Assembly: GCA_009869945.1 (NCBI GenBank)
Contig: WIXG01000103.1
Span: forward strand, 62,001-126,000
Source: Mesaphorura yosii
Lineage: Eukaryota; Arthropoda; Collembola; Poduromorpha; Tullbergiidae
DNA: 64,000 nucleotides
Reading direction: 5' to 3'
Numbering within the stretch: position 1 is the stretch's first letter; each line of letters begins with the position of its first letter. Below are positions 42,526-64,000 of this stretch, piece by piece. A program made the position numbers and the translations under genes. Below the pieces are notes generated by a model. That model was not told the origin of the DNA. It saw nothing but the letters and a program-made list of their open reading frames with translations, and did no database searches.

Positions 42526-64000
<21,475 letters not shown>

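Follow-up and report, generated by a model that had tools for sequence, protein, structure and literature searches.

Tandem mutually exclusive exons, as treated in PMC9741552, PMC5740500 and PMC6071210, are neighbouring, homologous exons of one gene that share a reading frame and are similar in length. The locus described here resembles them in all of these respects. It comprises a 30-nt microexon of a B56 gene (exon F) and, upstream of it, a second copy (copy A). It differs in that copy A lacks a donor and contains a stop codon. The pairs treated in PMC9741552 give rise to protein differences within a homologous region, whereas the peptide of copy A and exon F would be identical. Joint inclusion of the two 30-nt copies would itself keep the frame, again unlike such pairs.

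Exons Ab and 3 of U2AF1, as presented in part of PMC5224494, share with this locus a proposed duplicated unit made of upstream intron plus exon, and the branch-point and tract regions of both copies, which matter for exon choice there, offer a further likeness to copy A and exon F. The same portion of that report describes the U2AF1 exons as both spliced, 67 nt each and seven residues apart, in which they differ from the present pair; inclusion of both or of neither leads to stop codons, unlike the 30-nt pair here. It also attributes most mutually exclusive tandem exon duplications of invertebrates to recombination that involved the upstream intron, in keeping with a duplicated intron-plus-exon unit at this locus. 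A stop-bearing alternative exon of SCN8A, named in PMC5740500, is likewise a tandem exon homologous to its neighbour and carrying an in-frame stop; that exon is reported as spliced, whereas copy A has no donor and is known here from sequence alone.

Tandem exon duplicates are usually described alive, and a dying pair would show the mode of loss. Our literature searches brought up no title about duplication of a B56 microexon, which is no proof of absence, and scans of viral contig and genome contig collections returned no relatives of the B56 query.

A second copy of the B56 microexon

The window, the whole 64,000-nt stretch of DNA that was analysed, covers positions 62001-126000 of contig C103 in an assembly of 93.0 Mb and 1,127 contigs. 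With 66 matches to PF00379, a cuticle family characteristic of arthropods, this assembly probably comes from an arthropod. Its B56/PPP2R5 gene was modelled with 14 exons, 13 introns and 637 residues, with splice junctions read by eye and the start codon inferred. The product matches the PP2A B56 (PPP2R5) family in Pfam (PF01603, E 6e-192, residues 140-546), and a 165-residue query taken from it matched human B56 gamma with E 1.2e-94, including an identical stretch of 16 residues. Skipping of the microexon, joining exon 10 to exon 12, keeps the frame and leaves the protein ten residues shorter.

A second B56 gene is located on contig C70 (- strand, 2600-5700 of piece L012). By reading, its interruption lies at a different place, inside the stretch that corresponds to the microexon (TIIS, then LVYN), where it has a long intron; no duplicate was noticed in this gene when it was read.

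The features of the locus are:

63303..63430, + strand: exon 10, ending ...THWNK and followed by GTAAGT (gene model)
63479..63506, + strand: acceptor region of copy A, with a CTGAT branch-like motif from 24 nt before the exon, a T-rich tract and TATAG (position-matrix score 8.56)
63507..63536, + strand: copy A, the relic microexon, with an in-frame TAG at 63520-63522 (comparison with exon F)
63535..63539, + strand: CTAAC, a motif resembling a branch site for exon F; it takes in the final two bases of copy A and the would-be donor place of that copy
63551..63564, + strand: exon F acceptor, a T-rich tract and AG
63565..63594, + strand: functional 30-nt microexon F, which is exon 11; its decapeptide is identical to human B56 gamma there
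63595..63600, + strand: donor of exon F, GTGAGT after TCT, with the lowest score of 18 donors (1.53, leave-one-out)
63683..63729, + strand: intron 11 patch with three ACGGTTAG units and a gapped 18-nt copy A fragment at 63696-63719
63901..64000, + strand: start of exon 12, which runs past the window edge

Copy A (GACCATACACGGTTAGATCTATAATGCACT, 63507-63536) and exon F (GACCATACATGGGCTGATCTACAACGCTCT, 63565-63594) are homologous, equal in length (30 nt each) and in phase, and identical at 23/30 positions. Translated in frame, copy A reads KTIHG*IYNAL. Five of the seven differences are silent third-position changes (CAC/CAT, GGT/GGG, TAT/TAC, AAT/AAC and GCA/GCT), and the other two fall in the Leu codon, where CTG has become TAG. 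Elsewhere in the window, both strands included, no 30-mer attains 20/30 identity to the exon; in 300 dinucleotide shuffles of the surrounding 1.5 kb, the best identity was 20, reached once. The similarity extends into the acceptor tract of copy A (63493-63506), identical to that of exon F at 10/14 positions, while the next 14 nt upstream agree at 3/14 and the downstream flanks at 7/20.

Directly 5' of copy A stands ATATGTTTTTATAG, and directly 3' stands AACTAA, which matches the exon F donor GTGAGT at 0/6 positions. The gap between copy A and exon F is 28 nt, and the sole GT within 63537-63564 has a donor score of -6.62. These results confirm, to the exact coordinates, what the preliminary description had read from the sequence: a second microexon copy with an acceptor, without a donor and with an in-frame TAG, whose differences outside the Leu-to-stop codon are all synonymous. 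Since copy A today lacks two defining features of a member of a mutually exclusive pair, a donor and an open frame, we class it as what is left of a tandem exon duplication; its similarity to the adjacent exon, acceptor included, is beyond chance.

Among the best candidates scored, copy A (up to 3 mismatches) and the surrounding 701 bases each have a single place in the 93-Mb assembly. An assembly duplicate, an artefact for which the preliminary description had allowed, thus found no support. Over 63300-64000, Tandem Repeats Finder reported no repeat.

Silent divergence and the origin of copy A

The preliminary description had argued that silent-only divergence is expected if both copies once coded, for instance as mutually exclusive exons, whereas a recent random duplicate would carry changes at all codon positions. 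This contrast had omitted that exon F, being constrained, itself changes only synonymously. For the nine complete codons, we weighed two histories against each other: one in which copy A is free from birth beside an exon F that changes only silently, and one in which both copies are constrained until copy A dies at a time tau ago. Codon likelihoods favoured the second (2dlnL of 9.39, 7.92 and 7.55 at kappa 1, 2 and 4), with Bayes factors of 46.8 (kappa 2) and 38.3 (kappa 4) under priors flat over 0-2 for t and flat over 0-t for tau. Leaving out the Leu codon raised the Bayes factors to 137 and 131; leaving out both the Gly and Leu codons gave 44 and 37 (kappa 2 and 4), with 2dlnL of 8.50 and 8.16.

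Simulations of free drift with seven differences agreed, retaining one amino-acid change or fewer in 0.65-0.79% of cases (at kappa 2, 10/1531, 22/2795, 27/3419 and 25/3406 for t of 0.15, 0.20, 0.25 and 0.30). When the three adjacent changes from GGGCTG to GGTTAG were taken as one mutation, the other four differences, over seven codons, were all silent with P = 0.008-0.013. In the favoured model, the best tau was 0.05-0.06, and the age was poorly bounded, with the best t ranging from 0.9 to 3, the grid edge. Because the test was prompted by a pattern already noticed, its probabilities are somewhat flattering. The synonymous-divergence argument thus holds, on nine codons only, in a test that includes the constraint on exon F.

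We tentatively prefer, at somewhat less than an even chance, a history in which the microexon had a twin, copy A, that once coded and then died. We place it only slightly ahead of a partial duplication, the two being nearly level by judgement and not by a computed posterior. A tandem duplication would have produced two acceptor-plus-exon units, both spliced in as alternatives for a time and encoding the same ten residues. Both exons would then have changed at silent positions only, while the surrounding intron drifted past recognition. A small deletion or rearrangement would have taken the donor of copy A and set its 3' end against the branch region of exon F, and a stop codon would have arisen. 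In favour of this history, similarity is confined to the functional parts (23/30 in the exon and 10/14 in the tract, against 3/14 and 7/20 in the flanks).

The dead-twin history carries costs of its own. Although the model places the death of copy A recently (tau 0.05-0.06), not one donor base is left, and this calls for a deletion or rearrangement; total donor loss (0/6) by point mutation at tau 0.05 has P ~1e-8. Such a deletion must be assumed to end almost exactly at the exon end, and the CTAAC of exon F (63535-63539) occupies the lost donor place. Redundant exons for the same peptide should lose one copy quickly unless both are useful. In addition, the signal lies in nine complete codons only, and one small indel would account for the 3/14 flank under a partial duplication. 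The earlier claim that both copies once coded therefore stands in part: the silent-only pattern survives an explicit test, at less than 1% under free drift, but the donor is totally gone and the peptide is identical. Its suggestion of mutually exclusive exons fares worse, given the 0/6 donor trace, the 28-nt gap, CTAAC on the donor place and a shared decapeptide, which leaves no isoform difference between the copies.

Hardly less plausible is a single partial tandem duplication of ~58 nt, comprising the 3' end of the intron and the microexon. Copy A would have been donorless from birth, would never have coded and would have drifted, with some of the synonymous differences arising in the constrained exon F and the remainder being luck. 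The missing donor and the 28-nt spacing are then explained in one step, and short near-tandem duplications belong to the background of this genome. Copy A and exon F are the sole non-low-complexity pair of near-tandem 30-mers with at least 23/30 identity at 31-200 nt spacing in the 64-kb window; a sample of 20 pieces of 10 kb each from this genome (200 kb) contains six such places. The implied breakpoints match at 4/5 bases (GCTAT/GCTCT) and at 5/9 over nine bases, a weak sign, as 5/272 upstream 5-mers are as good, this one included. Set against these points are a likelihood ~40 times lower under flat priors, a silent pattern found in <1% of simulations and a copied unit that must end at the exon end by chance. 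Furthermore, the best age of the neutral model (t ~0.24) predicts ~65% identity in the upstream flank, or ~9/14 without indels, where 3/14 is observed (P(<=3/14) ~0.001 if there was no indel).

A more specific form of the dead-twin history, in which the twins served as insurance, seems doubtful to us. A weak-donor 30-nt microexon, hard to splice, would have been kept twice with the same peptide, the copies being too close to join and either of them rescuing inclusion. Selection would have acted on splicing efficiency and not on isoform diversity, and one twin would just have died. If both copies really coded the same decapeptide under constraint, tandem exons would be kept for reasons beyond isoform diversity; if not, silent-only divergence over ten codons can arise in a never-coding copy, which is a warning.

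Present splicing potential and further alternatives

Position matrices were derived from 18 introns, 13 of the B56 gene and five of the C70 paralogue, with one paralogue intron of unclear boundary left out. On the full matrix, the copy A acceptor scores 8.56, above 14/18 used acceptors and below four (theirs scored leave-one-out), and a fraction of 0.0095 of the 3,784 AGs in the window scores at least as high. The exon F acceptor is stronger (9.69, leave-one-out), with CTAAC where copy A has CTGAT; a branch-like motif is present within the last 60 nt before 14/18 acceptors. The donor of exon F (TCT/GTGAGT) is the weakest of the 18, so the microexon may be regulated.

Having no donor and an in-frame stop, copy A cannot code in the normal way, and judging from these signals it could act today as an upstream acceptor at most. 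By the computed reading frame, splicing to this acceptor would produce an exon of 88 nt and end translation at codon 498 of 637, with three exon junctions still downstream of the stop. Stops far upstream of exon junctions generally trigger decay, and the 88-nt stop-bearing product, if the acceptor were ever used, would be expected to undergo nonsense-mediated decay. Copy A was also considered as an 11-nt exon with the donor-like ACG/GTTAGA at 63518; both joinings tried give stops.

These properties raise the alternative that copy A, whatever its origin, is kept as a functional decoy, a competing upstream acceptor whose unproductive 88-nt TAG exon would lower B56 output in the manner of poison exons. 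The high acceptor score, the position of the stop ahead of three junctions and the weak exon F donor are consistent with this. We nonetheless consider it unlikely, as exon F has the stronger acceptor with the CTAAC motif and silent-only codon differences are not expected of a poison exon. Nor is the RNA structure unusual: with z of 1.63 and 1.55 the region is less stable than most shuffles, 94/100 for 63431-63901 and 192/200 for 63431-63600 being at least as stable. We regard as very improbable that copy A was recently inserted here from another B56 gene or haplotype, diverged but still coding. Under the codon model this would likewise give silent-only divergence and a recent stop, but among the best candidates scored the genome has no other place within 3 mismatches, the C70 paralogue differs in protein here and is interrupted inside the segment, and a copy lying in tandem next to the very same exon speaks for a local duplication.

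A copy A fragment in intron 11 and other features of the window

The window contains four occurrences of the motif ACGGTTAG, each of them within 63515-63729: one lies in copy A and the others in intron 11. At least four occurrences were seen in 1/100 window shuffles. Within the intron 11 patch, 63696-63719 aligns with 18 bases of copy A when a 6-nt insert is allowed for, a match equalled in 0/2000 shuffles and, under two other scorings, in 0/1000 and 1/1000. Exon F shows no such match to the same stretch (1210/2000 shuffles as good). The fragment carries the copy A base at 5/5 covered positions where copy A and exon F differ, and it therefore probably shares a more recent common source with copy A than copy A does with exon F. 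This 18-nt, copy-A-specific fragment in the next intron is a new observation.

Among the matches listed for ACGGTTAGTTTAAA with at most one mismatch, 30 places in all, both exact ones lie in the intron 11 patch, which does not look like a genome-wide repeat. The three ACG/GTTAGT units score 5.72 as predicted donors, higher than the exon F donor on the same matrix (4.38). A gapped alignment and a counted offset of 164 nt had suggested a wider duplication, of intron 10 with the two copies, into intron 11; this was rejected, as the parts outside copy A are no better than shuffles; the score of the whole stretch, carried by the copy A fragment, was reached in 26/1000 shuffles, against 421/1000 under another scoring.

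Elsewhere in the window, an open frame at 34429-34878 (- strand) resembles what we take, as an impression, to be the GIY-YIG endonuclease end of a Penelope-like element; a Pfam search of this frame gave no match. Zinc-finger and Myb/SANT-type open frames at 24133-37866 (+ strand) possibly belong to one transcriptional regulator gene. The zinc-finger Pfam match, at 28316-29431, falls under the curated cut-off, and the Myb match, at 37447-37863, has an E of 1.3e-6.
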